Shown piece after piece: positions 32,341 to 64,000 of a stretch of DNA of 64,000 bases. The position numbers and the translations under genes were made by a program. The stretch's first letter is position 1, and each line of letters opens with the position of its first letter. The notes below the pieces were generated by a model. It searched no databases, had not been told where the DNA came from, and saw nothing but the letters and a program-made list of their open reading frames with translations. The stretch is from Chamaelirium japonicum. Its lineage: Eukaryota; Streptophyta; Magnoliopsida; Liliales; Melanthiaceae. The stretch spans positions 800,460 to 864,459 of the forward strand of contig CANTAL010000131.1 in assembly GCA_947650365.1 (NCBI GenBank), written 5' to 3'.

Positions 32341-32571
32341 TTCTAATTCATTCGCACGAATGTATCCATTCTAATTCATTCGTACGATCCATTCTAATTC
32401 ATTCATACGATCCATTCTATTTCATTTGCACGAATATATCCATTCTAATTCATTCGTATGATCCATTCTAATTCATTCGTCCGATCCATTCCAATTCATT
32501 CGCACAATCTATTCTAATTTATTCGTACGATCAATTCTAATTCATTAGCACGATCCATTATAATTCATTCG
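32341..32571 (-). repeat. - satellite block
   Basis: Ten reverse units with 28-bp forms at the left edge and near 32,430. It ends CATTCGGAATGG without a linker. Confidence 0.87.
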
Positions 32572-34310: not shown

Positions 34311-34846
34311 ATCCATTCTAATTCATTCATACGATCCATTCTAATTCATTCGTACAATCCATTCTAATTCATTCGCACGATCCATTCTAATTCATTCGCA
34401 CGAATGTATCCATTCTACTTCATTCGTACGATCCAGATCCATTCTAATTCATTCGTACGATCCATTCTAATTCATTCGCACAATCTATTCTAATTCATTA
34501 GTACGATCCATTTTAATTCATTCGTACGATCGTACGAATGAATTAGAATGGATCATACGAATGAGTAAGAATGGATCGTACGAATGTATCCATTCTAATT
34601 CATTCGTACGATCCATTCTAATTCATTCGTACACATGCGAATGAATGAGAATAGATCATACGAATGATTAAGAAATGGATCGTAGGAATGAATTAGAATG
34701 GATACATTCGTGCGAATGAATTAGAATGGATCGTATGAATGAATTATGTTGGATCGTATGAATGAATTAGAATGGATCGTATGACGTGTGAAAGAATTAG
34801 AATGGATTGTATGAATGAATTACAATGGATCGTATGAATGAATTAC
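34311..34846. repeat. Mosaic of four blocks
   Basis: - 34,311-34,530; + 34,531-34,584; - 34,585-34,634; + 34,635-34,845. The first internal switch is a perfect 32-bp palindrome. Confidence 0.88.
34514..34545. repeat. Perfect 32-bp palindrome at a strand switch
   Basis: Reverse array meets forward array at TCGTACGATCGTACGA. Arms of 16 bases are exact, with no spacer. The same switch type occurs at 51,553-51,598 and 61,322-61,371. Confidence 0.92.
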
Positions 34847-35873
34847 TCTAATTCATTCGCACGAATGTATCCATTCTAATTCATTCATACGATCCATTCT
34901 AATTCATTCGTACGATCCATTCTAATTCATTCGCACGAATGTATCCATTCTAATTCATTCGTCCGATCCATTCTAATTCATTCGCATGATCCATTCTAAT
35001 TCATTCGCACAATCTATTCTAATTCATTCGTACGATCCATTCTAATTCATACGTACGATCTATTCTAATTCATTCGTACGATCCATTCTAATTCATTCGC
35101 ACAATCTATTCTAATTCATTCGTACGATCCATTCTAATTCATTCGTACGATCTATTCTAATTCAATCGTACGACCCATTCTAATTCATTCGCACGAATGT
35201 ATCCATTCTAATTCATTCATACAATCTACTCTAATTCATTCGTACGATCCATTCTAATTCATTCGTACAATCCATTCTATTTCATTCGTACGATCCATTC
35301 TTACTCATTCGTATGATCCATTCGAATTCATTCGCACGAATGTATCCATTCTAATTCATTCGTATGATCCATTCTAATTCCTTTGTACGAACCATTCTAA
35401 TTCATTCGTACAATCCATTCTATTTCATTCGTACGATCCATTCTTACTCATTCGTATGATCCATTCTAATTCATTCGCACGAATGTATCCATACTAATTC
35501 ATTCCTACGATCCATTCTACTTCATTCGTACGATCCATTCTAATTCATTCATACGATCCATTCTAATTCATTCATACGATCAATTCTAATTCATTCGCAG
35601 GAATGTATCCTTTCTAATTCATTCGTACGATCCATTCTAATTCATTCGTACGATCCATTCTAATTCATTAGCATGATCTATTCTAATTCATTCGTACAAT
35701 CCATTCTATTTCATTCGTACGATTCATTCTTACTCATTCGTATGATCCATTCTAATTTATTCGTACGAATGTATCCATTCTAATTTATTCGTACGATCCA
35801 TTCTAATTCATTCGCACGATCAATTCTAATTCATTCGTACGATCCATTCTAATTCATTCGTACAATCCATTCT
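34847..35873 (-). repeat. - satellite block
   Basis: About 44 reverse units. Two AATAG-type/GTAAG-type reverse pairs lie near 35,270 and 35,410, about 137 bp apart, inside a locally repeated string. It ends at TCTAGA (about 35,871-35,876). Confidence 0.89.
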
Positions 35874-35957
35874 AGAATGAATTAGAACGGATCATACGAA
35901 TGAAATAGAAAGGATCGTAAGAATGGATCATACGAATGTTATCGTATGATCCATTCT
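35874..35957. repeat. Short + block closed by a 16-bp-arm hairpin
   Basis: Three forward units, then arms 35,920-35,935 and 35,942-35,957 (exact reverse complements) around the 6-base loop ATGTTA. The array returns to - orientation through this hairpin. Confidence 0.9.
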
Positions 35958-36647
35958 AATTCATTCGCACGAAGGTATCCATTCTAATTCATTCGTACGA
36001 TCCATTCTAATTCATTCGTACAAATATATCCACTCTAATTCATTCATACTATCCATTCTAATTCATTCGCACGAATGTATCCATTCTAATTCATTCGTAC
36101 GATCCATGCTAATTCATTCGCACGATCCATTCTAATTCATTCGCTTGAATGTATCCATTCTATTTCATTCGTATGATCCAGATCCATTCTAATTCATTCG
36201 TACGATCCATTCTAATTCATTCGTACAATCCATTCTTATTCATTCGTATGATCCATTTTTACTCATTCGTACGATCCATTCTAATTTATTTGCACGAATA
36301 TATCCATTCTAATTCATTCATACGATCCATTCAAATTTATTCATACGATCTATTCTAATTCTTTCGCACGAATGTATCCATTCTAATTCATTCGTACGAT
36401 CCATTCTAATTAATTCATACGATCCATTCTAATTCATTCATACAATCCATTCTAATTCTTTCACACGATCCATTCTAATTCATTCGTACGATCCATTCTA
36501 ATTCATTCATACGATCCATTCTAATTCATTCGTACAATCCATTCTATTTCATTCGTACGATCGCACGATCCATTCTAATTCATTTGTACGATCCATTCTA
36601 ATTCATAAGTACGATCCATTCTTTTTCATTCGTACGATCCATTCTAA
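35958..36647 (-). repeat. - satellite block
   Basis: Reverse units. A 69-codon open frame at 36,149-36,358 closely resembles frames on the opposite strand near 49,700-49,950 and 59,300-59,510. This similarity reflects an inverted relative of the same higher-order string, not a gene family. Confidence 0.88.
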
Positions 36648-37194
36648 TAAAATAGAATGGATTGTACGAATGAATTAGAATGGATCGTACGAATGAATTC
36701 GAATAGATCGGGTGAAAAAATTAGAATGGATTGTATGAATGAATTAGAATGGATCGTATGAATGAATTAGAATGGATCGTACGAAGGAATTAGAATGGAT
36801 ACATTCGTGCGAATGAATTAGAATGGATCGTACGAATGAAATAGAATGGATACATTCATGCGAATGAATTAGAATTGATCGTACGAATGAATTAGAATAG
36901 ATTGTGCGAATGAATTAGAATGGATCGTACGAATGAATTTGAATGGATACATTCATGCGAATGAATTAGAATGGATCGTATGAATGAATTAGAGTGGATA
37001 CATTCGTATGAATGAATTAGAATGGATCGTACGAAGGAATTAGAATGGATACATTCGTGCGAATGAACTATAATGGATCGTACGAATGAATTAGAATGGA
37101 TACATTCGTGCGAATGAATTAGAATGGATCGTATGAATGAATTAGAATGGATCGTACTTATGAATTAGAATGGATCGTACGAATGAAATAGAAT
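36648..37194 (+). repeat. + satellite block rich in 28-bp units
   Basis: Forward units, with 28-bp forms near 36,790, 36,850, 36,950, 37,000, 37,055 and 37,100, the highest density seen in a + block. Confidence 0.88.
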
Positions 37195-38931
37195 ACGATC
37201 CATTCTCACTCATTAGCACGATCCATTCTAATTCATTCGTACGACCAATTCTAATTCATTAATACAATCCAATCTAATTCATTCATACGATCCATTCTAA
37301 TTCATTCGCACGAATGTATCCATTCTAATTCATTCGTACGATCCATTCTTATTCATTCGTACGATCTATTCTAATTCATTCATACGATCCATTTTAATTC
37401 ATTCGTACGATCCATTCTAATTTATTCGCACGATCCATTCTAATTCATTCATACGAATGTATCCATTCTAATTCATTCATACGATCCATTCTAATTCATT
37501 CGCACGATCCATTCTAATTCATTCGTACGAATGAATCCATTCTAATTTATTTGTACGATCTATTCTAATTCATTCGTACAATCCATTCTATTTCATTCGT
37601 ACGATCCATTCTTACTCATTCATACGATGATCCATTCTAATTCCTTCTTACGATCCATTCTAATTTATACGCACGAATTTATCCATTCTACTTCATTCTA
37701 ATTCATTCCTAAGATCCATTCTAATTCATTCGCACGAATGTATCCATTCTAATTCATTCGTACGATCCATTCTAATTCATTCATACGATCCATTCTAATT
37801 CATTCGCACGATCCATTCGAATTCACTCATACGATCCACTCTAATTCATTCGTATGATCCATTCTAATTCATTCGTACAATCCATTCTATTTCATTTGTA
37901 CGATTCATTCTTACTCATTCATACTATCCATTCTAATTCATTCGTACGATCCATTCTAATTCATTCGCACGAATGTATCCATCATTTGTACGATCCATTC
38001 TAATTCATTCATACGATCCATTCTAATTCATTCGTACGATCCATTCTAATTCATTCATACGATCCAATCTAATTCATTCATACGATCCATTCTAATTCAT
38101 TCGTACGATCCATTCTAATTCATTCATACGATCCATTCGAATTCATTCGTACGAGCCATTCTAATTCATTCGTACAATTCTAATTCCTTTGTACGATCCA
38201 TTCTAATTCCTTTGTTCTAATTCATTCATACGATCCATTCTAATTCATTCGTACGATTCATTCTAACTCAATCCATTCTAATTCATTCGTACGATCCATT
38301 CTAATTCATTCGTACAATCTATTCTATTTTATTCGTACGATCCATTCTTACTCATTCGTACGATCCATTCTTATTCATTCGTACATACGATCCATTCTTA
38401 TTTATTTGCACGAATACATTCGTACGATCCATTCTTACTCATTCGTATGATCCATTCTAATTCATTCGCACGAATGTATCCATTCTAATTCATTCATACG
38501 ATCCATTCTAATTCATTCGCACAATCCATTCTAATTCATTCGCACGATCAATTCTAATTCATTCATACGATCCATTCTAATTCATTCGTACGATCCATTC
38601 TTACTCATTCGTATGATCCATTCTAATTCATTATCACGAATGTATCCATTCTAATTCATTCGTATCCATTCTAATTCATTCGTACGATCCATTCTAATTG
38701 ATTCGCACAATCTATTCTAATTCATTCATACGATCCATTCTAATTCATTCGTACGATCCATTCTAATTCATTCGCACGATCCATTCTAATTCATTAATAC
38801 GATCCATTCTAATTCATTCGTACGACGCACGATCCATTCTAATTCATTCATACGATCCAATCTAATTCATTCATACGATCCATTCTAATTCATTCGTATG
38901 TATCCATTCTAATTCATTCATACGATCCATT
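37195..38931 (-). repeat. - satellite block (1.7 kb)
   Basis: About 75 reverse units. The marker GTACGACGCAC at 38,820-38,830 opens a string nearly identical to 12,532-12,640. The right switch, CATACGATCCATTGAATTAG, occurs again at 43,206 (offset 4,285 bp) with matching flanks. Confidence 0.89.
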
Positions 38932-41900
38932 GAATTAGAATGGATATATTCGTGCAAATAAATTAGAATGGTTCATACGAATGACTAAGAATAGATTGTA
39001 TGAATGAATTAGAAAGGATCATATGAATGAATTAGAATGGATCGTGCGAATGAATTCGAATGGATCGTGCGAATGAAATAGAATGGATACAAAAGAATTA
39101 GAATGGATCATACGAATGAATTAGAATGGATCATATGAGTAAATTCGAATAGATCGTGCGAATGAATTAGAATGGATTTTATGAATGAATTAGAATGGAT
39201 CGTGCTAATGAGTTAAGAATGGATCGTACGAAGGAATTAGAATGAATCGTACGAAGGAATTAGAATGGATCGTACGAATGAGTTAGAATGGATTATACGA
39301 ATGAATTAGAATGGATCGTACGAATGAATTAGAATGGATACATTCGTGCGAATGAATTTGAATAGATCATACGAATGAATAAGAAATGGATCATACGAAT
39401 GAATTAGAATGGATGGTACGAATGAATTAGAATGGATCGTACGAATGAATTAGAATGGATGGTACGAATGAACTAGAATGGATCGTGCGAATGAATTAGA
39501 ATGGATTTTATGAATGAATTAGAATGGATCGTACGAAGGAATTTGAATGGATCGTACGAATGAACTAGAATGGATTATACGAATGAATTAGAATGGATCG
39601 TATGAATGAATTAGAATGGATCGTACAAATGAATTAGAATGGATACATTCGTGCGAATGAATTAGAATGGATCATACGAATGAGTAAGAAATGGATCGTA
39701 CGAATGAATTAGAATGGATGGTACGAATGAATTAGAATGGATCGTACGAATGAATTAGAATGGATGGTACGAATGAACTAGAATGGATCGTACGAATGAA
39801 TTAGAATGGATCGTACGAATGAATTAGAATGGATTCTGCGAATGAATTAGAATGGATACATTCGTGCGTAGAATGGATCGTATGAATGAATTAGATTGGA
39901 TCGTGTGAAAGAATTAGAATGGATTGTATGAATGAATTAGAATGGATCGTACGAATGAATTAGAATGGATCGTACGAATGAATTAGAATGGATCGTGCGT
40001 CGTACGACTGAATTAGAATGGATTGTATTAATGAATTAGAATGGATCGTGCGAATGAATTAGAATGGATCATACGAATGAGTAAGAATGGATTGTATGAA
40101 TGAATTAGAATGGATCGTATGAATGAATTAGAATGGATCGTACGAATGAATTAGAATGGATTGTACGTATCAATTAGAATGGATACATTCGTGCGAATGA
40201 ATTAGAATGGATCGTATGAATGAATTAGAATGGATCGTATGAATGAATTAGAATGGATCGTACAAAGGAATTAGAATGGATCGTATGAATGAATTAGAAT
40301 AGATTGTGCGAATGAATTAGAATGGATCGTATGAATGAATTAGAATGGATCGTACGAATGAATTAGAATGGAATGGATTGTACGAATAAATTAGAATGGA
40401 TCATGCGAATGAATTAGAATGGATTGTACGAATAAATTCGAATGGATCGTACGAATGAATTAGAATGGATCGTACGAATGAATTAGAATGGATCGTACAA
40501 AGGAATTCGAATGGATCATACGAATGAATTATAATGGGTCGTACAAAGGAATTAGAATGGATCGTACGAAGGAATTAGAATGGATTGTACGAAGGAATTA
40601 GAATGGATACATTCGTGCGAATGAATTAGAAAAGATCATATGAATGAATTAGAATGGATCGTATGAATGAATTATAATGGATATATTCGTGCAAATAAAT
40701 TAGAATGGATCATACGAATGAGTAATAATGGATTGTACGAATGAATTAGAATGGATCGTATGAATGAATTAGAATGGATTGTACGAATGAATTAGAATGG
40801 ATCGTACGAATGAATTAGAATGGATCATACGAATGAATTAGAATGGATACATTCGTGCGTAGAATGGATCGTACGAATGAATTAGAATGGATCATGTGAA
40901 AGAATTAGAATGGATTGTATGAATGAATTAGAATGGATGGTATGAATGAATTAGAATGGATCGTACGAATGAATTAGAATGGATTGTATGAATGAATTAG
41001 AATGGATCGTGCATTATACGAATGAATTAGAATGGATCGTATTAATGAATTAGAATGGATCGTATTAATGAATTAGAATGGATCGTGCGAATGAATTAGA
41101 ATGGATCATACGAATGAATTAGAATGGATCGTATAAATGAATTAGAATGGATGCATATGAATGAATTAGAATGGATCGTATGAATGAATTAGATTGGATC
41201 GTACGAATGAATTAGAATGGATCGTACGAATGAATTAGAATGGATCGTATGAATGAATTAGAATGGATCGTACGAAGGAATTAGAATGGATCGTACGAAT
41301 GAATTAGAATGGATCGTATGAATGAATTAGATTGGATCGTATGAATGAATTAGAACGATCATATGAATGAATTAGATTGGATACATTCGTGCGAATGAAT
41401 TAGAATGGATCATACGACTGAGTAAGAAATGGATCGTACGAATGAATTAGAATGGATTGTACGAAGAAATTAGAATGGATCGTACGAATGAATTAGAATG
41501 GATCGTACGAATGAATTAGAATGGATTGTGCGAATGAATTAGAATGGATACATTCGTGCGTAGAATGGATCGTACGAATGAATTAGAATGGATCGTGTGA
41601 AAGAATTAGAATGGATTGTATGATTGAATTAGAATGTATCGTATGAATGAATTAGAATGGATCGTACGAATGAATTAGAATGGATCGTACGAATGAATTA
41701 GAATGGATCGTGCGTCGTACGAATGAATTAGAATTGATCGTATTAATGAATTAGAATGTATCGTACGAATGAATTAGAATGGATCGTACGAATGAATTAG
41801 AATGGATCCTATGAATAAATTAGAATGGATACATACGAATGAATTAGAATGGATCGTATGAATGAATTAGATTGCATCGTATGAATGAATTAGAATGGAT

Positions 41901-46459: not shown

Positions 46460-47195
46460 ACGATCCATTCTAATTCATTCATATGATCCATTCTAATTCA
46501 TTCGCACGATCCATTCTAATTCATTCGCACGAATGTATCTATTCTATTTCATTCGTACGATCTATTCTAATTCATTCGAACGATCAATTCTAATTCATTC
46601 GTACGATCCATTCTAATTCATTCATACAATCCATTCTTACTCATTCGTATGATCCATTCTAATTCATTTGCACGAATATATCTATTCTAATTCAATGGAT
46701 CGTATGAATGAATTAGAATGGATACATACGAATGAATTAGAATGGATCTTATGAATGAATTAGAATAGATCGTACGAATGAATTAGAATGGATCGTACGA
46801 ATGAATTAGAATTGATCGTACGAATTAATTAGAATAGATTGTGCGAATGAATTAGAATGGTGCGAATGAATTAGAATGGATCGTGCGAATGAATTAGAAT
46901 GGATCGTACGAATGAATTAGAATGGATCGCGTACAATCCATTCTATTTCATTCGTACGATCCATTCTTAACTCATTAGCACGATCCATTCTAATTCATTC
47001 ATAAAATCCATTCTAATTCATTCGCACGATCCATTCTTACTCATTCGTATGATCCATTCTAATTCATTTGCACGAATATATCCATTCTAATTCATTTGCA
47101 CGAATATATCCATTCTAATTCATTCATACAATCCATTCTTACTCATTCATATGATCCATTCTAATTCATTTGCACGAATATATCCATTCTAATTC
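46460..47195. repeat. Three short blocks with a duplicated switch
   Basis: - 46,460-46,694; + 46,695-46,930; - 46,931-47,195. The switch TTCTAATTCAATGG occurs at about 46,687 and 47,189, 502 bp apart, with matching flanks. The switch GGATCGCGTACAAT at 46,924 is the twin of that at 24,905 (offset 22,019 bp). Confidence 0.88.
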
Positions 47196-48887
47196 AATGG
47201 ATCGTATGAATGAATTAGAATGGATACATACGAATGAATTAGAATGGATCGTATGAATGAATTAGATTGGATCGTATGAATGAATTAGAATGGATCGTGC
47301 GTCGTACGAATGAATTAGAATGGATCGTATTAATGAATTAGAATGGATCGTGCGAATGAATTAGAATGGATCGTACGAATGAATTAGAATGGATCGTATG
47401 AATGAGTTAGAATAGATTGTGCGAATGAATTAGAATGGATCGTACGAATGAATTAGAATGGATACGAATGAATTAGAATGGATACATTCGTGCGAATGAA
47501 TTAGAATGGATCATACGAATGAGTAAGAATGGATCGTACGAATGAATTAGAATGGATCGTATGAATGAATTAGAATTGATCGTGCGAATGAATTAGAATG
47601 GATTGTGCGAATGAATTAGAATGGATCGTACGAATGAATTAGAATGGATACATTTGTGCGAATGAATTAGAATGGATCATACGAATGAGTAAGAATGGAT
47701 CGTACGAATGTATTCGTTCAAATGAATTAGAATAGATCGTATGTACGAATAAATTAGAATGGATCGTACGAATAAAATAGAATGGATTGTACGAATGAAT
47801 TAGAATGGATCGTACGAATGAATTAGAATGGATTGAATTAGAATGAATCGTACGAATGAATTAGAATGGATCGTATGAATGAATGAGAACAAAGGAATTA
47901 GAATGGATCGTACGAAGGAATTAGAATTGTACGAATGAATTAGAATGGCTCATACGAATGAATTAGAATGGATCGTATGAATGAATTAGAATGGATCTTA
48001 CGAATGAATTAGAATGGATCGTATGAATGAATTAGATTGGATCATACGAATGAATTAGAATGGATCGTATGAATGAATTAGAATGGATCGTACAAATGAT
48101 GGATACATTCGTGCGAATGAATTAGAATGGATCGTACGAATGAATTAGAATGGATCGTATGAATGAGTAAGAATGAATCGTACAAATGAAATAGAATGGA
48201 TTGTACGAATGAATTAGAATGGATCATACGAATGAATTAGAGTGGATCGTATGAGTGAATTCGAATGGATCGTGCGAATGAATTTGAATGGATCGTATGA
48301 ATGAATTAGAATGGATCGTACGAATGAATTAGAATGGATACATTCGTGCGAATGAATTAGAATGGATCGTACGAATGAATTAGAATGAATTAGAATGGAT
48401 AAATTCGTGCGTATAAATTAGAATGGATCGTAAGAAGGAATTAGAATGGATCATCGTATGAATGAGTAAGAATGTATCGTACGAATGAAATAGAATGGAT
48501 TGTACGAATGAATTAGAATGGATCGTACAAATAAATTAGAATGGATTCATTCGTGCGAATGAATTAGAATAGATCGTGCGAATGAATTAGAATTGATCGT
48601 ATGAATGAATTAGAATGGATACATTCGTATGAATGAATTAGAATGGATCGTGCGAATAAATTAGAAAGGATCGAACGAATGAATTAAAATGGATCGTATG
48701 AATGAATTAGAATAGATCATACGAATGAATAAGAATGGATCGTACGAATGAATTAGAATGGATACATTCGTGCGAATGAATTAGAATGGATCATATGAAT
48801 GAATTAGATAGGATCGTATTAATGAATTAGAATGGGTCGCACGAATGAATTAGAATGGATCGTGCTAATGAGTAAGAATGGATCGTA
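47196..48887 (+). repeat. + satellite block
   Basis: Forward units. 47,241-47,835 is the second copy of the 43,950-44,565 segment, with marker GTGCGTCGTAC at 47,297-47,307. The large segmental duplication begins at about 48,120. Truncated units lie near 47,825, 47,880 and 47,925. Confidence 0.89.
47241..47835 (+). repeat. Second copy of the 0.6-kb duplication
   Basis: Matches 43,950-44,565 in unit order. It differs by scattered substitutions and lacks one GTAAG-bearing unit near 47,750, where the first copy has it. Confidence 0.88.
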
Positions 48888-49434
48888 TTCTAATTCATTC
48901 GTACGATCCATTCTAATTCATAAGTACGATCCATTCTAATTCATTCATACGATCCATTCTAATTCATTCACACGAATGTATCCATTCTAATTCATTCGTA
49001 CGATCCATTATAGTTCATTCGCACGAATGTATCCATTCTAATTCCTTCGTACGATCCATTCTAATTCATTCATACGAATGTATCCATTCTAATTCATTCA
49101 TACGATCCATTCTAATTCATTCGCACGAATGTATCCATTCTAATTCATTCGTACGATCCATTCTAATTCATTCGCACAATCTATTCTAATTCATTCGTAC
49201 GATCAATTCTAATTCATTCGCACGAATGTATCCATTCTATTTCATTCGTACGATCCATTCTAATTCATTCGCACGAATGTATCCATTCTAATTCCTTCGT
49301 ACGATCCATTCTAATTCATTCATATGATCCATTCTAATTCATTCATACAATCCATTCTAATTCTTTCACACGATCTATTCGAATTCATTCGTACGATCCA
49401 TTCTAATTCATTCGTACAATCCATTCTATTTCAT
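48888..49434 (-). repeat. - block of copy 1
   Basis: Reverse units with 28-bp forms in high density, TTCATAAGTACG near 48,920 and a rare TATAGTTC core near 49,011. Its partner is 58,489-59,034. Confidence 0.9.
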
Positions 49435-50165
49435 TAGAATGGATTGTACGAATGAAATAGAATGGATCGTACTTATGAATTAGAATGGATCGTACGAATG
49501 AATTAGAATGGATCGTGCGATCGTACGAATGAAATAGAATGGATTGTACGAATGAATTAGAATGGATTGTACGAATGAATTAGAATGGATCGTACGAATG
49601 AATTAGAATGGATCGTACGAATGAATTAGAATGGATCATGTGAAAGAATTAGAATGGATTGTATGAATGAATTAGAATGGATCGTATGAATGAATTAGAA
49701 TGGATCGTACGAATGAATTAGAATGGATACATTCGTGCGAAAGAATTAGAATAGATCGTATGAACAAAATTAGAATGGATCGTATGAATGAATTAGAATG
49801 GATATATTCGTACAAATAAATTAGAATGGATCGTACAAATGAGTAAAAATGGATCGTACGAATGAAATAGAATGGATTGTACGAATGAATTAGAATGGAT
49901 CGTACGAATGAATTAGAATGGATATGGATCATACGAATGAAATAGAATGGATACATTCATGCGAATGAATTAGAATGGATCGTGCGAATGAATTAGAATG
50001 GATCGTACGAATAAATTAGAATGGATACATTCGTGTGAATGAATTAGAATGGATCGTATGAATGAATTAGAGTGGATACATTTGTACGAATGAATTAGAA
50101 TGGATTGTACGAATGAATTAGAATGGATACATTCGTGCGAATGAATTAGAATGGATCATACGATA
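49435..50165 (+). repeat. + block of copy 1
   Basis: Forward units, including CGTGCGATCGTACG near 49,515, a GTGAAAG unit near 49,640 and GTAAA/AATAG units near 49,840. It reads as a 94-codon open frame on the - strand (49,672-49,956), the longest in the window and a repeat artefact. Confidence 0.9.
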
Positions 50166-51259
50166 ACATTCGTACGATCCATTCTTACGATCCTTTCTAT
50201 TTCATTCATATGATCCGTTCTAATTCATTCTAGAATGGATTGTACGAATGAATTAGAATGGATCGTACGAATGAATTAGAATTGATCGTGCGAATGAATT
50301 AGAATGGATCGTACGAATAAATTAGAATGGATACATTCGTGCGAATGAATTAGAATGGATCATATGAATGAGTAAGAATGAATCGTACGAATGAAATAGA
50401 ATGGATTGTACGAATGAATTAGAATAGATCGTGCTAATGAATTAGAATGGATCGTACGAATGAATTAGAATGGATCGTACGAATGAATTAGAAAGGATAC
50501 ATTCCTGCGAATGAATTAGAATGGATCGTATGAATGAATTAGAATGGATCGTATGAATGCATTAGAATGGATCGTACGAATGAAGTAGAATGGATCGTAC
50601 GAATGAATTAGTATGGATACATTCGTGCGAATGAATTAGAATGGATCATACGAATGAGTAAGAATGGATCGTATGAATGAAATAGAATGGATTGTACGAA
50701 TGAATTAGAATGGTTCGTACGAATGAATTAGAATGGATCATATGAATGAATTAGAATGGATACATTCGTGCGAATGAATTCGAATGGATCATACGAATGA
50801 GTAAGAATGGATCGTACGAATGAAATAGAATGGATTGTACGAATGAATTAGAATGGATCGTACGAATGAATTAGAGTAGATTGTATGAATGAATTAGAAT
50901 GGATACATTCGTGCGAATGAATTAGAATGGATCGTACGATTGAATTAGAATAGATCGTATGAATGAATTAGAATGGATCGTACGAATGAATTTGAATAGA
51001 TTGTGCGAATGAATTAGAATGGATCGTACGAATGAATTAGAATAGATCGTACGTATGAATTAGAATGGATCGTACGAATGAATTAGAATATATGGTGCGA
51101 ATGAATTAGAATGGATCATGTGAATGAATTAGAATGGATCGTACGAATGAATTAGAATGGATACATTCGTGCGAATGAATTAGAATGGATCGTACGAATG
51201 AATTAGAATGGATCGTATGAATGAATTAGAATGGATACATTCGTGCGAATGAATTAGAG
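50166..51259. repeat. Short - block then + block of copy 1
   Basis: 50,166-50,231 holds three reverse units with shortened joins (CATTCTTACGATCC). The switch back is at TCTAGA. 50,232-51,259 reads forward, with three GTAAG/AATAG pairs (near 50,370, 50,660 and 50,800) and the odd 28-bp linker ATACATTCCTGCG (near 50,500). Confidence 0.9.
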
Positions 51260-51799
51260 TAATTCATTCATACGATCCATTCTAATTCATTCATACAATC
51301 CATTCTAATTCTTTCACACGTCATACGATCCATTCTAATTCATTCATACGATTCAATCTAATTCATTCATACAATCCATTCTAATTCATTCGCACGAATA
51401 TATCCATTCTAATTCATTCCTACGATCCATTTCTTACTAATTCGTATGATCCATTCTAATTCATTCGCACGTGTACGAATGAATTAGAATGGATCGTACG
51501 AATGAATTAGAATGGATACATTCGTACGAGCCATTCTTACTCATTCGTATGGTCCATTCTAATTCATTCGTACGATCGTACGAATGAATTAGAATGGATC
51601 GTACGAATGAATTAGAATAGATTGTGCGAATGAATTAGAATGGATCGTACGAATGAATTAGAATGGATCTGGATCGTACGAATGAAGTAGAATGGATACA
51701 TTCGTGCGAAGGAATTAGAATGGATCGTGCGAATGAATTAGAATGGATTGTACGAATGAATTAGAATGGATCATATGAATGAATTAGAATGGATCATGT
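51260..51799. repeat. Mosaic with 46-bp palindrome, copy 1
   Basis: - 51,260-51,472; + 51,473-51,525; - 51,526-51,575; + 51,576-51,799. Five switches occur in 540 bp, all repeated at the same relative places in copy 2. Confidence 0.9.
51553..51598. repeat. Perfect 46-bp palindrome
   Basis: Reverse-to-forward switch centred on TCGTACGATCGTACGA. Arms of 23 bases are exact, with no spacer. The counterpart in copy 2 is 50 bp, because one flanking base differs (GGTCC here, GATCC there). Confidence 0.93.
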
Positions 51800-54273
51800 A
51801 TCCATTCTAATTCATTCGTACGATCCATTCTAATTCATAAGTATGATCCATTCTAATTCATTCATACGATCCATTCTAATTCATTCGCACGAATGTATCC
51901 ATTCTAATTCATTCGTACGATCCATTCTAATTCATTCGCACGATCCATTCTAATTCATTCATACGATCCATTCTAATTCATTCGCACGAATGTATCCATT
52001 CTAATTCATTCATATACGATCCATTCTAATTTATTCGTACGATCTATTCATTCTAATTCATTCGTATGATCCATTCTAATTCCTTCGTACGATCTATTCT
52101 AATTCATTCGTACGATCCATTCTATTCCATTCATACGATCCATTTTATTTCATTCGTACGATCCATTCTTATTCATTCGCACGAATGTATCCATTCTAAT
52201 TCATTCGTATAATCCATTCTAATTCATTCATACGATCCATTCTAATTCATTCGTATGATCCATTCTAATTCATTCATACGATCCATTCTATTTCATTCGT
52301 ACGATCCATTCTTACAAATGTATCCATTCTAATTCATTCGTAGGATCCATTCTAATTCATTCGTACGATCCATTCTAATTCATTCATACGATCCATTCTA
52401 ATTCATTCGCACAAATGTATCCATTCTAATTCATTCGCACGAATGTATCCATTCTAATTCATTCGTACGATCCATTCTATTTCATTCGTACGATCCATTC
52501 TAATTCATTCGTACGATCCATTCTAATTCATTCGCATGATCCATTCTAATTCGTTCACACGAATGTATCCGATCCATTCTAATTCATTCGTATAATCCAT
52601 TCTAATTCATTCGCACGATCCATTCGAATTCACTCATACGATCCATTCTAATTCATTCGTATGATCCATTCTAATTCATTTGTATCCATTCTATTTCATT
52701 TGCACGATCTATTCGAATTCATTTGCACGATCCATTCTAATTCATTCATACGATCCATTCTAATTCATTTATACAATCCATTCTTACTCATTCGTATGAT
52801 CCATTCTAATTCATTTGCACGAATATATCTATTCTAATTCATTCATACGATCTATTCTAATTCATTCATACGATCTATTCTAATTCTTTCACACGAATGT
52901 ATCCATTCTAATTCATTCGTACTATCCATTCTAATTCCTTCGTACGATCCATTCTAATTCCTTTGTACGATCCATTCTAATTCCTTTGCATGACCCATTA
53001 TATTTCATTCGTACGATCCATTCTAATTCATTCGTACGATCCATTCTAAATTCATTCGTACGATCCATTCTAATTTATTCGTACGATCTATTCTATTTCA
53101 TTCGTACGATCCATTCTAATTCATTCATACGATCCATTCTAATTAATTCATACGATCCATTCTAATTCATTCGTACGATCCATTCTAATTCATTCGTACA
53201 ATCCATTCTATTTCATTCGTACGAATCATTCTTACTCATTCGTATGATCCATTCTAATTCATACGTACGATCCATTCTAATTCATTCATACGATCCATTC
53301 TAATTCCTTCGTACGTACGATCCATTCTAATTCCTTCGTACAATCCATTCTATTTCATTCGTACGAATCATTCTTACTCATTCGTATGATCCATTCTAAT
53401 TCATACGTACGATCCATTCTAATTCATTCATACGATCCATTCTAATTCCTTCGTACGTACGATCCATTCTAATTCCTTCGTACAATCCATTCTATTTCAT
53501 TCGTACGATCCATTCTTACTCATTCGTACGATCCATTCTAATTCATTCGCACGAATGTATCCATTCTAATTCATTCGTACGATCCATTCTAATTCATTCA
53601 TACGATCCATTCTTACTCATTCATATGATTTATTCTAATTCAATCGCACGATCGTGTGAATGTATCCATTCTATTTCATTTGTACGATCTATTCTAATTC
53701 ATTCGTACGATCCATTCTAATTCATTCATATAATCCATTCTAATTCTTTCACACGATCCATTCTAATTCATTCGTACGATCCATTCTAATTCATTTGTAC
53801 AATCCATTCTATTTCATTCGTACGATCCATTCTTACTCATTCGTACGATCCATTCATTCGCACGAATTTATCCATTCTAATTCATTCGTACGATACTTTA
53901 TAATTTATTTGTACAATCCACTCTATTTCATTCGTACGATCCATTCTTACTCATTCGGATGATCCATTCTAATTCATTCGCACGAATGTATCCATTCTAA
54001 TTCATTCGTACGATGCATTCTAATTCATTCCTACGATCCATTCTAATTCATTCATATGATCCATTCTAATTCATTCATACAATCCATTCTAATTCTTTCA
54101 CACCATCCATTCTAATTCATTCGTACGATCCATTCTAATTCATTCGTACAATCCATTCTATTTCATTCGTACGATCCATTCTTACTCATTCGTATGATCC
54201 ATTCTAAATCATTCACACGAATGTATCCATTCTAATTCATTCGTACGATCCATTCTAATTCATTCGTACGATC
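51800..54273 (-). repeat. Long - block of copy 1 (2.5 kb)
   Basis: About 107 reverse units. It contains a tandem duplication of 142 bp (6 x 23 + 4): GTACGAATCATTC begins at about 53,219 and 53,361, each copy ending in a doubled CGTACGTACG linker. Copy 2 has only one such string. Confidence 0.91.
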
Positions 54274-55663
54274 ATAAGAATGGATCGTACGAATGAATTA
54301 GAATAGATTGTGTGAATGATTTAGAATGGATCGTATGAATGAACTAGAATGGATACATTCGTGCGAATGAATTAGAATGGATCGTACGAATGAATTAGAA
54401 TGGATCGTACGAATGAATTAGAATGGATCGTATGAATGAATTAGATTGGATCGTATGAATGAATTAGAATGGATCGTACGAATGAATTAGAATAGATCGT
54501 ACGAATGAATTAGAGTGGATCGTATGAATGAATTAGAATGGATCGTGCGAATGAATTAGAATAGATTGTGCAAATGAATTAGAATGGACTGTATGAATGA
54601 ATTAGAATGGATCGTACGAAGGAATTAGAATGGATACATTCGTGCGAATGAATTAGAATGGATCGTACGAATGAATTAGAACGGAATCATTCGTACGATC
54701 CATTCTTATTCATTCCCATGAATGTATCCATTCTAATTCATTCGTACGATCAATTAGAATGGATCGTATGAATGAATTAGAATGGATCGTGCGAATGAAT
54801 TAGAATGGATCGTACGAATGAATTAGAATGGAATGGATTGTATGAATGAATTCCTTCGTACGAATGAATTAGAATGGATCGTATGAATGAATAAGAATGG
54901 ATCGTACGAAGGAATTAGAATGGATCATACGAATGAAATAGAATGGATCGTACGAAGGAATTAGAATGGATCGTACGAAGGAATTAGAATGGTGCGAATG
55001 AATTAGAATGGATTGTGCGAATGAATTAGAATGGATCGTACGAATGAATTAGAATAGATCGTACGAATGAATTAGAATGGATACATTCATGCTCGTGCGA
55101 ATGAATTAGAATGGATCATACGAATGAATAAGAATGGATTGTACGAATGAATTAGAATGGATCGTGCGAATGAAATAGAATGGATCGTGCGAATGAATAA
55201 GAATAGATTGTGCGAATGAATTAGAATGGATCGTACGAATGAGTAAGAATGGATCGTATGAAAGAAATAGAATGGATTGTACGTATCAATTAGAATGGAT
55301 ACATTTGTTACGATCCATTCTAATTCATTCGCACGATCCATTCTAATTCATTCGCACGATCCATTCTAATTCATTCGTACGATCCATTCTAATTCCTTTG
55401 TACGGTCCATTCTAATTCATTCATACAATCCATTCTAATTCTTTAACACGATCCATTCTAATTTCGTACGATCCATTCTATTTCATTCGTACGATCCATT
55501 CTAATTCATTCGTACGATCCATTCTAATTCATTCGCACAATCTATTCTAATTCATTCGAACGATCCATTCTAATTCATTCGTACGATCCATTCTAATTCA
55601 TTATTACACATTCGTACGATCCATTCTAATTCATTTGTACGATCCATTCTAATTCATTCGTAC
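54274..55663. repeat. Region right of copy 1: +, -, +, - blocks
   Basis: + 54,274-54,687 (to about 54,413 still part of the duplication); - 54,688-54,751; + 54,752-55,309; - 55,310-55,663. Near 54,831-54,920 a 5-bp duplication (GAATGGAATGG) followed by the micro-inversion ATTCCTTCGTACG recurs at 57,084-57,175 (offset 2,253 bp). Confidence 0.88.
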
Positions 55664-58488
55664 GAATGAAATAGAATGGATCGTATGAATTAGAATGGAT
55701 CGTACGAAGGAATTAGAATGGATATATTCGTGTGAATGAATTAGAATGGATCGTACGAATGAGTAAGAATGATTCGTACGAAGGAATTAGAATGTATCGT
55801 ATGAAGGAATTAGAAAAATTAGAATGGATCGTATGAATGAATTAGAATGGATACATTCGTGCGAATGAATTAGAATGGATCGTACGAATGAATTAGAATG
55901 GATACATTCGTGCGAATGAATTAGAATGGATCGTACGAATGAGTAAGAATGGATCGTACATTCGTGCGAATGAATTAGAATGGATCGTACGAAGGAATTA
56001 GAATGGATCATCGCATGAATGAGTAAGAATGGATCATCGCATGAATGGATCGTGTGAAAGAATTAGAATGGATTGTAGGAATGAATTAGAATGGATCATA
56101 TGAATGAATTAGAATAGATTGTGCGAATGAATTAGAATGGATCGTACGAATGAATTAGAATGAATCGTACGAATGAATTAGAATGGATCGTACGAATGAA
56201 TTAGAATGGATACATTCGTGCGAATGAATTAGAATGGATCGTAAGAATGAATTAGAATGGATCGTACGAATGAATTATAATGGATCGTACGAATAAATTA
56301 GAATGGATATATTCATTCGAATGAATTAGAATGGATCATACGAAGGAATTAGAATGGATCGTACGAATGAATTAGAATGGATCGTACGAATGATAAATTC
56401 GTGCGAATGAATTAGAATGGATTGTACGAATGAATTAGAATGGATCGTATGAATGAATTAGAATGGATCGTACGAATGAATTAGAATGGATACATTCGTG
56501 CGAATGAATTAGAATGGATCATACGAATGAGTAAGAATGGATCGTACGAATGAAATAGAATGGATTGTACGAATAAATTAGAATGGATCGTACGAATGAA
56601 TTAGAATGGATACATTCATGCGAATGAATTAGAATGGATCGTACGAATGAATTAGAATGGATACATTCGTGCGAATGAATTAGAATGGATCGTACGAATG
56701 AGTAAGAATGGATCGTACGAATGAAATAGAATGGATTGTACGAATGAATTAGAATGGGTCAAACGAATTAATTAGAATGGATTGTGTGAAAGAATAAGAA
56801 TGGATCGTACAAAGGAATTAGAATGGATCATATGAATGAAATAGAATGGATCGTACGAATGAGTAAGAATGGATTGTACGAATGAATTAGAATGGATCGT
56901 GCGAATGAATTAGAATGGATCGTGCAAATGAATTAGAATGGATCGTATGAATGATTTAGAATGGATACATGCGTGCGAATGAATTAGAATGGATCGTATG
57001 AATGAATTAGATTGGATCGTATAAATAAATTAGAATGGATCGTGCGAATGAATTAGAATGGATCGTACGAATGAATTAGAATGGAATGGATTGTATGAAT
57101 GAATTCCTTCGTACGAATGAATTAGAATGGATCGTATGAATGAATAAGAATGGATCGTACAAAGGAATTAGAATGGATCGTGCGAATGAATTAGAATGGA
57201 TCGTACGAAGGAATTAGAATGGGTCGTACGAATGAATTAGAATGGATCGTACGAATGAAATAGAATAGATTGTGCGAATGAATTAGAATGGATCGTACGA
57301 ATGAATTAGAATGGATACATTCGTGCGAATGAATTAGATTGGATCGTACGAATGAATTAGAATGGATACATTCGTGCGAATGAATTAGAATGGATCATAC
57401 GAATGAGTAAGAATGGATCGTACATTCGTGCGAATGAATTAGAATGGATCGTACGAAGGAATTAGAATGGATCATCGTATGATTGAGTAAGAATGGATCG
57501 TCGCACGAATGGATCGTGTGAAAGAATTAGAATGGATTGTATGAATGAATTAGAATGGATCATATGAATGAATTAGAATGGATCGTATGAATGAATTAGA
57601 ATGGATCGTATGAATGAGTAAGAATGATCGTGCGAATGAATTAGAATGGATCGTATGAATGAATTAGAATAGATTGTACTTATGAATTAGAATGGATCGG
57701 ACGAATGAATTAGAATGAATCGTACGAATGAATTAGAATGGATCGTACGAATGAATTAGAGTGGATCGTATGAATGAGTAAGAATGAATCGTACAAATGA
57801 AATAGAATGGATTGTACGAATGAATTAGAATGGATCATACGAATGAATTAGAGTGAATCGTATGAGTGAATTCGAATGGATCGTGCGAATGAATTTGAAT
57901 GGATCGTATGAATGAATTAGAATGGATCGTACGAATGAATTAGAATGGATACATTCGTGCGAATGAATTAGAATGGATCGTACGAATGAATTAGAATGGA
58001 TAAATTCGTGCGTATAAATTAGAATGGATCGTAAGAAGGAATTAGAATGGATCATCGTATGAATGAGTAAGAATGGATCGTACGAATGAAATAGAATGGA
58101 TTATACGAATTAATTAGAATGGATCGTACAAATAAATTAGAATGGATTCATTCGTGCGAATGAATTAGAATGGATCGTGCGAATGAATTAGAATGGATCG
58201 TATGAATGAATTATAATGGATACATTCGTATGAATGAATTGGAATGGATCGTGCGAATAAATTAGAATGGATCGTACGAATGAATTAAAATGGATCGTAT
58301 GAATGAATTAGAATAGATCATACGAATGAATAAGAATGGATCGTACGAATGAATTAGAATGGATACATTCGTGCGAATGAATTAGAATGGATCGTATGAA
58401 TGAATTAGATTGGATCATATTAATGAATTAGAATGGTTCGTACGAATGAATTAGAATGGATCGTGCTAATGAGTAAGAATGGATCGTA
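55664..58488 (+). repeat. Long + block (2.8 kb)
   Basis: About 123 forward units. The string GGATCGTACATTCGTGCG ... CATCGCATG ... GTGTGAAAG starting at 55,951 recurs at 57,415 (offset 1,464 bp). Copy 2 of the large duplication starts at about 57,731. Confidence 0.9.
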
Positions 58489-59034
58489 TTCTAATTCATT
58501 CGTACGATCCATTCTAATTCATAAGTACGATCCATTCTAATTCATTCATACGATCCATTCTAATTCATTCGCACGAATGTATCCATTCTAATTCATTCGT
58601 ACGATCCATTATAGTTCATTCGCACGAATGTATCCATTCTAATTCCTTCGTACGATCCATTCTAATTCATTCATACGAATGTATCCACTCTAATTCATTC
58701 ATACGATCCATTCTAATTCATTCGCACGAATATATCCATTCTAATTCATTCGTACGATCCATTCTAATTCATTCGCACAATTTATTCTAATTCATTCGTA
58801 CGATCAATTCTAATTCATTCGCACGAATGTATCCATTCTATTTCATTCGTACGATCCATTCTAATTCATTCGCACGAATGTATCCATTCTAATTCCTTCG
58901 TACGATCCATTCTAATTTATTCATACGATCCATTCTAATTCATTCATACAATCCATTCTAATTCTTTCACACGATCTATTCGAATTCATTCGTACGATCC
59001 ATTCTAATTCATTCGTACAATCCATTCTATTTCA
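58489..59034 (-). repeat. - block of copy 2
   Basis: Reverse units matching 48,888-49,434, including the TTCATAAGTACG unit, the TATAGTTC core and the ATACAATCC/TTTCACAC pair near 58,950. Confidence 0.9.
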
Positions 59035-61030
59035 TTAGAATGGATCGTATGAATGAAATAGAATGGATCGTACTTATGAATTAGAATGGATCGTACGAAT
59101 GAATTAGAATGGATCGTGCGATCGTATGAATGAAATAGAATGGATTGTACGAATGAATTAGAATGGATTGTACGAATGAATTAGAATGGATCGTGTGAAA
59201 GAATTAGAATGGATTGTATGAATAAATTAGAATGGATCGTATGAATGAATTAGAATGGATCGTACGAATGAATTAGAATGGATACATTCGTGCGAAAGAA
59301 TTAGAATAGATCGTATGAACAAATTAGAATGGATCGTATGAATGAATTAGAATGGATATATTCGTGCAAATAAATTAGAATGGATCGTACGAATGAGTAA
59401 AAATGGATCGTACGAATGAAATAGAATGGATTGTACGAATGAATTAGAATGGATCGTACGAATGAATTAGAATGGATATGGATCATACAAATGAAATAGA
59501 ATGGATACATTCATGCGAATGAATTAGAATGGATCGTGCGAATGAATTAGAATGGATCATACGAATAAATTAGAATGGATACATTCGTGCAAATGAATTA
59601 GAATGGATCGTATGAATGAATTAGAGTGGATACATTTGTACGAATGAATTAGAATGGATCGTACGAATGAATTAGAATGGATACATTCTTGCGAATGAAT
59701 TAGAATGGATCATACGATAACATTCGTACGATCCATTCTTACGATCCTTTCTATTTCATTCATATGATCCGTTCTAATTCATTCTAGAATGGATTGTACG
59801 AATGAATTAGAATGGATCGTACGAATGAATTAGAATTGATCGTGCGAATGAATTAGAATGGATAGTACGAATGAATTAGAATGGATACATTCGTGCTAAT
59901 GAATTAGAATGGATCATATGAATGAGTAAGAATGAATCGTACGAATGAAATAGAATGGATTGTACGAATGAATTAGAATAGATCGTGCTAATGAATTAGA
60001 ATGGATCGTACGAATGAATTAGAATGGATCGTACGAATGAATTAGAAAGGATACATTCCTGCGAATTAATTAGAATGGATCGTATGAATGAATTAGAATG
60101 GATCGTACGAATGAAGTAGAATGGATCGTACGAATGAATTAGTATGGATACATTCGTGCGAATGAATTAGAATGGATCATACGAATGAGTAAGAATGGAT
60201 CGTACGAATGAAATAGAATGGATTGTACGAATGAATTAGAATAGATCGTGCTAATGAATTAGAATGGATCGTACGAATGAATTAGAATGGATCGTACGAA
60301 TGAATTAGAAAGGATACATTCCTGCGAATTAATTAGAATGGATCGTATGAATGAATTAGAATGGATCGTACGAATGAAGTAGAATGGATCGTACGAATGA
60401 ATTAGTATGGATACATTCGTGCAAATGAATTAGAATGGATCATACGAATGAGTAAGAATGGATCGTACGAATAAAATAGAATGGATTATACGAATGAATT
60501 AGAATGGTTCGTACGAATGAATTAGAATGGATCATACGAATGAATTAGAATAGATACATTCGTGCGAATGAATTCGAATGGATCATACGAATGAGTAAGA
60601 ATGGATCGTACGAATGAAATAGAATGGATTGTACGAATGAATTAGAATGGATCGTACGAATGAATTAGAGTAGATTGTATGAATGAATTAGAATGGATAC
60701 ATTCGTGTGAATGAATTAGAATGGATCGTACGATTGAATTAGAATAGATCGTACGAATGAATTAGAATGGATCGTACGAATGAATTAGAATAGATTGTGC
60801 GAATGAATTAGAATGGATCGTACGAATGAATTAGAATAGATCGTACGTATGAATTAGAATGGATCGTACGAATGAATTAGAATAGATTGTGCGAATGAAT
60901 TAGAATGGATCATGCGAATGAATTAGAATGGATCGTACGAATGAATTAGAATGGCTACATTCGTGCGAATGAATTAGAATGGATCGTATGAATGAATTAG
61001 AATGGATACATTCGTGCGAATGAATTAGAG
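59035..61030. repeat. + block of copy 2 with short - island
   Basis: + 59,035-59,719; - 59,720-59,785; + 59,786-61,030. Two 23-bp units and one base fewer than copy 1 in the first part; 263 bp more in the third. Confidence 0.9.
59950..60480 (+). repeat. 263-bp tandem duplication private to copy 2
   Basis: The odd string ATTAGAAAGGATACATTCC occurs at 60,041 and 60,304, 263 bp apart (2 x 28 + 9 x 23). Copy 1 has it once (about 50,490). The two tandem copies share GCGAATTAATTAG, where copy 1 has GCGAATGAATTAG, so that change preceded the tandem step. Confidence 0.93.
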
Positions 61031-61570
61031 TAATTCATTCATACGATCCATTCTAATTCATTCATACAATCCATTCTAATTCTTTCACACGTCATACGAT
61101 CCATTCTAATTCATTCATACGATTCAATCTAATTCATTCATACGATCCATTCTAATTCATTCGCACGAATGTATCCATTCTAATTCATTCCTACGATCCA
61201 TTTCTTACTCATTCGTATGATCCATTCTAATTCATTCGCACGTGTACGAATGAATTAGAATGGATCATACGAATGAATTAGAATGGATACATTCGTACGA
61301 TCCATTCTTACTCATTCGTATGATCCATTCTAATTCATTCGTACGATCGTACGAATGAATTAGAATGGATCGTATGAATGAATTAGAATAGATTGTGCGA
61401 ATGAATTAGAATGTATCATACGAATGAATTAGAATGGATCTGGATCGTACGAATGAAGTAGAATGAGTACATTCGTGCGAATGAATTAGAATGGATCGTG
61501 CGAATGAATTAGAATGGATTGTACGAATGAATTAGAATGGATCGTATGAATGAATTAGAATGGATCATGT
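61031..61570. repeat. Mosaic with 50-bp palindrome, copy 2
   Basis: - 61,031-61,243; + 61,244-61,298; - 61,299-61,346; + 61,347-61,570. Block sizes match copy 1 within a base or two. Confidence 0.9.
61322..61371. repeat. Perfect 50-bp palindrome
   Basis: Arms of 25 bases, no spacer, centred on TCGTACGATCGTACGA. It is the longest spacer-less palindrome I found in the window. Confidence 0.93.
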
Positions 61571-63860
61571 ATCCATTCTAATTCATTTGTACGATCCATT
61601 CTAATTCATAAGTATGATCCATTCTAATTCATTCATACGATCCATTCAAATTCATTCGCCCGAATGTATCCATTCTAATTCATTCGTACGATCCATTCTA
61701 ATTCATTCGCACGATCCATTCTAATTCATTCATACGGTCCATTCTAATTCATTCGCACGAATGTATCCATTCTAATTCATTCATATACGATCCATTCTAA
61801 TTTATTCGTACGATCCATTCATTGTAATTCATTCGTATGATCCATTCTAATTCCTTCATACGATCTATTCTAATTCATTCGTACGATCCATTCTATTCCA
61901 TTCGTACGATCCATTCTATTTCATTCGTACGATCCATTCTTATTCATTCGCACGAATGTATCCATTCTAATTCATTCGTATAATCCATTCTAATTCATTC
62001 ATACGATCCATTCTAATTCATTCGTATGATCCATTCTAATTCATTCGTACGATCCATTCTATTTCATTCGTACGATCCATTCTTACTCATTCGCACAAAT
62101 GTATCCATTCTAATACATTCGTAGGATCCATTCTAATTTATTCGTACGATCCATTCTAATTCATTCATACGATCCATTCTAATTCATTCGCACGAATGTA
62201 TCCATTCTACTTCATTCGCACGAATGTATCCATTCTAATTCATTCGTACGATCCATTCTATTTCATTCGTACGATCCATTCTAATTCATTCGTACGATCC
62301 ATTCTAATTCATTCGCATGATCCATTCTAATTCGTTCACATGAATGTATCCGATCCATTCTAATTCATTCGTATAATCCATTCTAATTCATTCGCACGAT
62401 CCACTCGAATTCACTCATACGATCCATTCTAATTCATTCGTATGATCCATTCTAATTCATTTGTATCCATTCTATTTCATTTGCACGATCCATTCGAATT
62501 CATTTGCACGATCCATTCTAATTCATTCATACGATCCATTCTAATTCATTTATACAATCCATTCTTACTCATTCGTATGATCCATTCTAATTCATTTGCA
62601 CAAATATATCCATTCTAATTCATTCATACGATCTATTCTAATTCATTCATACGATCTATTCTAATTCTTTCACACGAATGTATCCATTCTAATTCATTCG
62701 TACGATCCATTCTAATTCCTTTGTACGATCCATTCTAATTCCTTTGCACGACCCATTATATTTCATTCGTACGATCCATTCTAATTCATTCGTACGATCC
62801 ATTCTAATTCATTCGTACGATCCTTTCTAATTCATTCGTACGATCCATTCTAATTTATTCGTACGATCTATTCTATTTAATTCGTACGATCCATTCTAAT
62901 TCATTCATACGATCCATTCTAATTAATTCATACGATCCATTCTAATTCATTCGTACGATCCATTCTAATTCATTCGTTCAATCCATTCTATTTCATTCGT
63001 ACGAATCATTTTTACTCATTCGTATGATCCATTCTAATTCATTCGTACGATCCATTCTAATTCATTTGTACGATCCATTCTAATTCCTTCGTACGTACGA
63101 TCCATTCTAATTCCTTCGTACAATCCATTCTATTTCATTCGTACGATCCATTCTTACTCATTCGTACGATCTATTCTAATTCATTCGCACGAATGTATCC
63201 ATTCTAATTCATTCGTACGATCCATTCTAATTCATTCATACGATCCATTCTTACTCATTCGTATGATCCATTCTAATTCATTCACACGATCGTGCGAATG
63301 TATCCATTCTATTTCATTCGTACGATCCATTCTAATTCATTCGTACGATCTATTCTAATTCATTCATATAATCCATTCTAATTCTTTCACACGATCCATT
63401 CTAATTCATTCGTACGATCCATTCTAATTCATTCGTACAATCCATTCTATTTCATTCGTACGATCCATTCTTACTCATTCGTACGATCCATTCATTCGCA
63501 CGAATTTATCCATTCTAATTCATTCGTACGATCCATTCTAATTTATTTGTACAATCCACTCTATTTCATTCGTACGATCCATTCTTACTCATTCGTAGGA
63601 TCCATTCTAATTCATTCGCACGAATGTATCCATTCTAATTCATTCGTACGATGCATTCTAATTCATTCGTACGATCCATTCTAATTCATTCATATGATCC
63701 ATTCTAATTCATTCATACAATCCATTCTAATTCTTTCACACCATCCATTCTAATTCATTCGTACGATCCATTCTAATTCATTCGTACAATCCATTCAATT
63801 TCATTCGTACGATCCATTCTTACTCATTCGTATGATCCATTCTAATTCATTCGAACGATC
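61571..63860 (-). repeat. Long - block of copy 2
   Basis: About 99 reverse units matching 51,800-54,273, with the single-copy form of the 142-bp string and the shortened right end CATTCGAACGATCATAAG. Confidence 0.91.
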
Positions 63861-64000
63861 ATAAGAATGGATCGTACGAATGAATTATAATAGATTGTGT
63901 GAATGATTTAGAATGGATCGTACGAATGAATTAGAATGGATACATTCGTCCGAATGAATTAGAATGGATCGTACGAATGAGTAAGAATAGATCATACGAA
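63861..64000 (+). repeat. + block at window end
   Basis: Six forward units matching 54,274-54,413, including the GTGTGAATGATTTAG unit. The array continues past the window. Confidence 0.88.

Follow-up and report, generated by a model that had tools for sequence, protein, structure and literature searches.

The DNA analysed here, a stretch of 64,000 nucleotides hereafter called the window, is C143:800,460-864,459 (C143 being contig CANTAL010000131.1 of assembly GCA_947650365.1), and it contains a satellite array in which a 9.6-kb block has been duplicated head to tail. Positions are window coordinates unless a contig is named. C143 has 864,459 bases and the last base of the window is the contig end. 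Array matches were found in all 124 one-kb tiles of the last 124 kb of C143, and the satellite was present in four of four 1-kb samples taken along the contig. The dominant monomer is 23 bp long (GAATGAATTAGAATGGATCGTAC), whereas the rarer 28-bp monomer has the same head but ends in ACATTCGTGC instead of CGTAC; the two are a 5-bp gap and one substitution apart and whole-monomer exact copies of both occur in the window. A model parse of the whole window resulted in 2,382 monomers of the shorter, Chio1 type and 353 of the longer, Chio2 type, with a consensus fit of 93.5%, as well as 96 orientation switches in 64 kb. The 9-bp TTCGTACGA is found 396 times on the plus strand and 414 times on the minus strand. 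As far as the available text of the publication goes, Chio1 and Chio2 are the holocentromere satellite of Chionographis japonica, are distinguished by a deletion of 5 bp and a substitution of 1 bp, form arrays of mixed forward and reverse orientation, and make up megabase-sized centromere units, several per chromosome (Kuo et al. 2023, PMC10264360). We take the array of the window to be this satellite, a match made to the published description rather than to published letters; a literature search with 20-base words of the monomer found no published record of the letters. The stretch may be presumed to have a centromere function.

The two copies of the block are A (48,120-57,730, plus strand), which spans the full 9.6 kb, and B (57,731-64,000, plus strand), which the contig end cuts at 6.27 kb. 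Pairwise alignment of 47,501-55,500 with 57,001-64,000 gave a single unbroken diagonal for 48,120-54,413 versus 57,731-64,000, along which the offset between A and B drifts from 9,611 to 9,587. An extended alignment that includes some left flank has 163 differences in 6,559 aligned bases and 22 gaps. The offset changes at A 48,373 (-10), 49,593 (-46), 49,766 (-1), 50,537 (+240), 51,172 (-23), 52,314 (+10), 52,916 (-23), 53,049 (+22), 53,287/53,389 (-100 and -42, i.e. -142) and 54,196 (-51). An initial annotation, made from the letters alone, had reported the same diagonal with the same drift and correctly summing steps, and the alignment bears this out: each step it listed has a counterpart within about 60 bases and only the 1-bp step was absent from its list. 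Its statement that almost all steps are whole units holds for half of them, since five of the ten (46, 240, 23, 23 and 51) are exact sums of 23 and 28 and the others are not. The step of 142 stems from an irregular segment that is perfectly duplicated in tandem, the second step of 10 (A 52,314) is 33 minus 23, and the step of 240 is what is left of a 263-bp duplication after subtraction of a 23-bp loss that preceded it. The ten orientation switches that the initial annotation counted as common to both copies recur one-to-one with the same direction and phase pair, at 48,887, 49,433, 50,164, 50,231, 51,259, 51,472, 51,524, 51,577, 51,796 and 54,274 in A and at 58,488, 59,034, 59,718, 59,785, 61,030, 61,243, 61,295, 61,348, 61,567 and 63,861 in B.

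How far this resemblance exceeds that of the array at large was determined by means of one-kb tiles. Eighteen tiles (33,001-39,000, 48,001-54,000 and 58,001-64,000) represent A, B and an inverted third copy, C. Of these, 17 are matched at 92-98% by another part of the window, the exception being tile 33,001, half of which lies outside copy C (86.8%). The best partners of the remaining 46 of the 64 window tiles have a median of 85.4% and a maximum of 92.4%. With tile partners at 92-98% against an array background of about 85%, the match of A and B is not a matter of chance. One equally good match does lie in the window, namely the inverted copy C, which, like the contig end, goes unmentioned in the initial annotation. 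Segmental duplications are defined as sequences of at least 1 kb with at least 90% identity; A and B agree at about 97.5% or more of aligned bases over 6.3 kb in the window, and the duplication covers 9.6 kb on the separately assembled scaffold C5.

Since the window and the contig end together, 6.3 kb is a cut-off length. Unique 50-base words show colinearity between window 37.8-63.6 kb and C5 41.658-41.683 Mb, and three alignments of window 42.0-64.0 kb with its C5 counterpart gave 1.07-1.35% substitution. The full second copy on C5 occupies 41,677,270-41,686,755; it passes the point at which C143 stops and runs to the end of the unit at 41,686,755, equivalent to window 57,718. The unit is thereby complete twice, head to tail, on C5, from which it follows that the event was a 9.6-kb head-to-tail duplication of 48,120-57,730. 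The unit size of 6.3 kb proposed earlier must be corrected accordingly: the supposed spacer at 54,414-57,730 (plus strand) is the last third of the unit and matches both the first and the second copy on C5. The tandem junction (57,700-57,780, without assigned strand) keeps the monomer phase continuous. Genome match searches covered an assembly of 1,518,659,071 bases in 3,253 contigs, with 40 candidates scored per search. Among the 40 candidates scored for a 700-bp query across the junction, full-length 99% matches were only in C143 and C5; elsewhere full-length matches were at most 90%, with some short parts of the query matching higher.

Presence of the junction on C5 bears on two other explanations. 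According to the first, the plant itself has no second copy, which would instead be a stretch duplicated or looped during assembly; the contig indeed ends inside copy B, a place where assembly errors occur. A and B are distinct, however, in the 163 bases and 22 gaps mentioned above, and C5 has both copies, the second of them complete, with private indels of its own. Because C143 and C5 share both copies but carry different private changes, duplication by the assembler is very unlikely, close to negligible, and the corresponding worry of the initial annotation can be laid aside. According to the second, A and B belong to an already amplified, classical higher-order repeat with many units of 9.6 kb. 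A higher-order-repeat cluster of Chio1/2, CL73, is mentioned in the available text of Kuo et al. (PMC10264360), and C143 shows recurrent block offsets of other sizes, near 9.0, 18.1 and 19.1 kb. A multi-monomer block does lie head to tail, as the 9.6-kb unit on C5 demonstrates, but just two copies were found in the C143 and C5 stretches and among the scored candidates: beyond C5 41,686,755 the match drops to array background with many gaps, and the junction is confined, at full length and 99%, to C143 and C5. We consider such amplification unlikely.

The inverted copy C (33,538-39,020, minus strand) matches A 47,108-52,557 (plus strand) in pairwise alignment. Its ten switches, in mirror order, are nine of A's ten plus one at 47,196. 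Copy C runs through the left edge of A (48,120) without a break; against A's left flank (47.2-48.2 kb) it shows 96-100% identity per 200 bp, whereas A and B share 92-97% over the same flank, with more gaps. As C carries this flank unbroken, it represents the arrangement before the duplication, and the junction of B is derived. Most of C falls within window 15.9-37.8 kb, for which chaining gave no match on C5; just about 6 kb take the place of this stretch there, but an inverted remnant is kept at C5 41.658 Mb. The copy designated D (C5:85.65 Mb) differs from the others by 4.3-4.7%, a comparison restricted to 1,445 columns by large internal gaps in D versus A. A further inverted pair (window 3,005-4,017 and 32,001-33,013, 92.4%) adjoins the left end of copy C.

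Overlapping stretches are thus present in both direct and inverted copies of close divergence (A/B about 2.0%, C about 2.7%), which might suggest replication template switching or re-insertion of extrachromosomal circular DNA (eccDNA) instead of unequal exchange, with C made by the same machinery on the other strand. Gene conversion and eccDNA are both discussed in the available text of Kuo et al. (PMC10264360). The direct copy, however, is exactly adjacent and in register, for which unequal exchange needs no extra steps, and C lies 8 kb from A with different edges. We regard such a route as a possibility, albeit a rather unlikely one.

Minus/plus pairs 10.6-11.6 kb apart were also observed on C1 (two places), C7, C108, C183 and C205, while the C/A pair is 11.2 kb apart. 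An ancestral inverted pair shared across chromosomes was considered and, at 40 scored candidates per search, rejected as improbable. Pair members are 11.7-12.0% apart at the three loci compared (C1, C7 and C108), and the pair loci of C1, C7, C108, C183 and C205 do not appear among the matches listed for two queries drawn from the interval that separates C and A. On C1, two samples from between the pair and one from beyond it match the window at array background only (84-87%; best on C5 88.5%). We take the similar spacing to be probably due to chance.

The time at which the duplication occurred can be expressed relative to the separation of C143 and C5. Query 48,120-49,120 has matches of at least 95% only in C143 (three) and C5 (three, one at 85.66 Mb) among scored candidates, and four of five samples along C143 match C5 at 97-99%. 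C143 is most likely the other haplotype of the C5 unit at about 41-42.3 Mb. At 87-90%, the matches found on other chromosomes hardly exceed what unrelated stretches give (84-88%) and are not used as evidence for shared blocks. C143:1-201,000 corresponds to C5:42.067-42.317 Mb in reverse and C143:600,001 to C5:41.426 Mb in forward orientation; within the centromere unit, C143 and C5 are set apart by a misjoin or an inversion of large size. Because C143 is not colinear with C5 throughout, we infer this allelism rather than demonstrate it. The available text of Kuo et al. describes a primary hifiasm assembly of 1,526,137,861 bp in 3,786 contigs with 12 chromosome scaffolds and gives a 1C value of 1,368 Mb (PMC10264360); the surplus of the assembly over 1C would fit unpurged second haplotypes.

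With A5 and B5 designating the first and second copy on C5, 3,891 gap-free columns were compared. The allelic pairs A-A5 and B-B5 differ by 1.36% and 1.41%, the pairs A-B, A-B5, B-A5 and A5-B5 by 1.80-2.26%, and C differs from A, B, A5 and B5 by 2.52-2.80%. The ratio of A/B to allelic divergence is 1.44 (95% interval 1.28-1.67; 46-column block bootstrap) and that of C to allelic divergence 1.91 (1.52-2.38; same procedure); in 99.7% of bootstrap replicates C predates the A/B duplication. A longer four-way alignment contains 54 two-by-two sites, of which 51 group the copies by position (AA5/BB5), while AB/A5B5 has two sites and AB5/A5B one; two further sites with more than two states were set aside. 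This grouping by position places the duplication before the split of C143 and C5. There has been very little conversion between the copies since then. Private substitutions number 29 in A, 40 in A5, 39 in B and 56 in B5. The internal clock proposed in the initial annotation runs in relative terms, as given by the ratio of 1.44, but at somewhat different rates on the branches, as detailed below, and a cluster of 14 private sites at 52.5-53.0 kb in B5 counts against a strict clock. The clock is relative only and provides no absolute date.

Most indels of the region 48.1-54.4 kb can be placed on branches. Before the split, B lost 10 bp and 23 bp and A lost 33 bp, as polarised by C; a 22-bp difference between A and B dates from the same period. 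We assign the loss of 23 bp, near 50,555, to the ancestor that B and B5 share, since both halves of B's 263-bp duplication, and B5 too, are without the segment; aligners write it otherwise, as 240 for B and 23 for B5. After the split B lost 46, 23, 23 and 51 bp and gained the 263-bp tandem duplication private to it (59,936-60,422, plus strand; 224-bp exact repeat at offset 263). Copy A gained 23 bp as well as 142 bp, the latter being a private tandem duplication (53,193-53,508, plus strand; 174-bp exact repeat at offset 142), and lost 171 bp near 54,384, a segment present in A5, B5 and D. A5 lost 80 and 114 bp and gained 4 bp, and B5 has a 33-bp gap, a 23-bp gap and a 23-bp gain. Together with two single-base changes this amounts to about twenty events. 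Many of their sizes are exact monomer sums, but 10, 22, 33, 80, 114, 142 and 171 are not, and the exact placement of the crowded gaps at 52.3-53.2 kb is aligner-dependent. Beyond 54.4 kb, further gaps of 6-51 bp occur in A, A5 and B5. The earlier suggestion, namely that a block was duplicated and its copies then gained and lost sequence locally and independently of each other, a history that can serve as an ordered record, is upheld.

It is highly probable that a 9.6-kb in-register head-to-tail duplication took place in the ancestor of both haplotypes of a Chio1/Chio2 centromere unit and was followed by mostly separate change. In that ancestor, a 9.6-kb stretch with many strand switches would have been duplicated head to tail, probably through exchange or break-induced copying between sister chromatids misaligned in the register of the 23/28-bp monomers. 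Each copy would afterwards have changed mostly alone, by substitutions and by the gain or loss of short tandem segments through short-range slippage or exchange, with little exchange between the copies; the strand switches are passed on with the block, not remade. What the data demonstrate is the head-to-tail structure with its junction, its age relative to copy C and to the separation of C143 and C5, and the branches on which most indels fall; the exchange route is the probable part. On our reading, A/B arose by in-register unequal exchange, which produced a higher-order repeat of two copies, and it is one of several block duplications of kb scale in this array. Some observations weigh against this reconstruction. 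Samples from the first 200 kb of C143 match C5 42.32-42.07 Mb in reverse; for a 1-kb sample at C143:400,001, the scored candidates include no match better than 90%; three of the 54 two-by-two sites conflict with grouping by position; and the C5 branches are longer than those of C143 (96 versus 68 private substitutions, p = 0.03).

The origin of the strand switches themselves was also considered. The available text of Kuo et al. (PMC10264360) predicts a hairpin at an 8-bp dyad, which on our reading of the monomer is TCGTACGA, and strand switching driven by such a hairpin or palindrome might have shaped the block. The phases of the switches are uneven (chi-square 63.8, 76 switches), but common descent of old switches could skew them as well. 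Just 2 of the 76 de-duplicated switches fall on the 8-bp dyad axis, and switch counts by axis do not track palindrome length (Spearman 0.23, p = 0.29). Since the phases do not favour this axis, the published hairpin is not an evident cause of the switches; palindrome-driven switching at the dyad was rejected as unsupported, and we find it highly unlikely that it shaped the block.

Block copying is common in this array and not restricted to A, B and C. In C143 740-864 kb, 53 of 124 one-kb tiles have a partner of at least 92% within the stretch, as have 24 of 100 in C5 41.61-41.71 Mb. Block offsets in C143 include about 2.16 kb (99.4-99.5%), 9.0 kb (92-94%), 18.1 kb (92-98%) and 19.1 kb (93-97%), and this occurrence at several offsets indicates that multi-kb copying recurs in the array. 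The closest block pair in the 124 kb compared is a direct duplication at C143:747,460 and 749,624 (offset 2,164 bp, 99.4%), and C143:750-797 kb contains the block duplications with offsets of about 9.0, 18.1 and 19.1 kb.

Elsewhere in the assembly, a satellite segment of about 0.6 kb is 0-2.4% divergent among seven places, L047 and L048 (C1), L007 (C7), L049 (C183), L050 (C108), L051 (C28) and L052 (C46), with an eighth, L008 (C205), 6-8% off; given the low divergence across the seven, such segments would seem to have been transferred from one chromosome to another in recent times. C29:2.02-2.12 Mb and C1:51.88-51.96 Mb have alike match spacing (about 54.0 kb and 28.6 kb), and C29 looks like the other haplotype of a C1 unit; the C29 and C1 stretches compared are 1.9% apart and are not a position-matched pair. 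A full-length COX1 frame was present on at least 59 unplaced contigs (for instance C514, C537 and C551), that is, many redundant mitochondrial contigs. The frame is free of the stop codons expected under animal mitochondrial codes, which suggests a plant genome.

The duplication itself is an ordinary satellite event of a known kind, unusually well resolved. No prior description of the 9.6-kb duplication was found in the available text of two Chionographis papers or in a literature search, supplements and subscription journals being outside this scope. Satellite arrays are usually too uniform to order single events; here the switches and irregular monomers act as barcodes, by which a duplication junction, an inverted copy and some twenty indels can be placed relative to the haplotype split. 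The setting is a holocentromere, whose origin is an open question, and the locus offers a direct route to ask whether blocks or monomers are the units of growth in such arrays and to what extent conversion takes place in them. We tentatively suggest that the holocentromere arrays of this plant might grow mainly by multi-kb block copying in both orientations, with strand switches as fixed, inherited barcodes, and that copies a few kb apart would then evolve in a tree-like manner with very little conversion over the time of haplotype separation. Block growth with little conversion, if true, would run counter to the usual picture of rapid homogenisation.

Human alpha satellite is an example of centromeric higher-order repeats. 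Like repeats of that type, A/B is a multi-monomer block arranged head to tail, the copies of which are far more alike than the monomers within the block; unlike them, it was seen in two copies only, and its 9.6-kb unit comprises about 400 short monomers with 14 internal strand switches. The array resembles Chio1/Chio2 of Chionographis japonica in its 23- and 28-bp monomers, 5 bp and one substitution apart, and in its mixture of forward and reverse arrays, whereas the base-level block duplications, junctions and relative ages given here are not part of the published account in its available text. The Chama satellite of Chamaelirium luteum, from the sister genus, has TTCGTACGA in common with Chio, but differs, according to the available text, in its 60-bp monomer and in arrays described as uniformly oriented with long higher-order repeats (PMC12722358).

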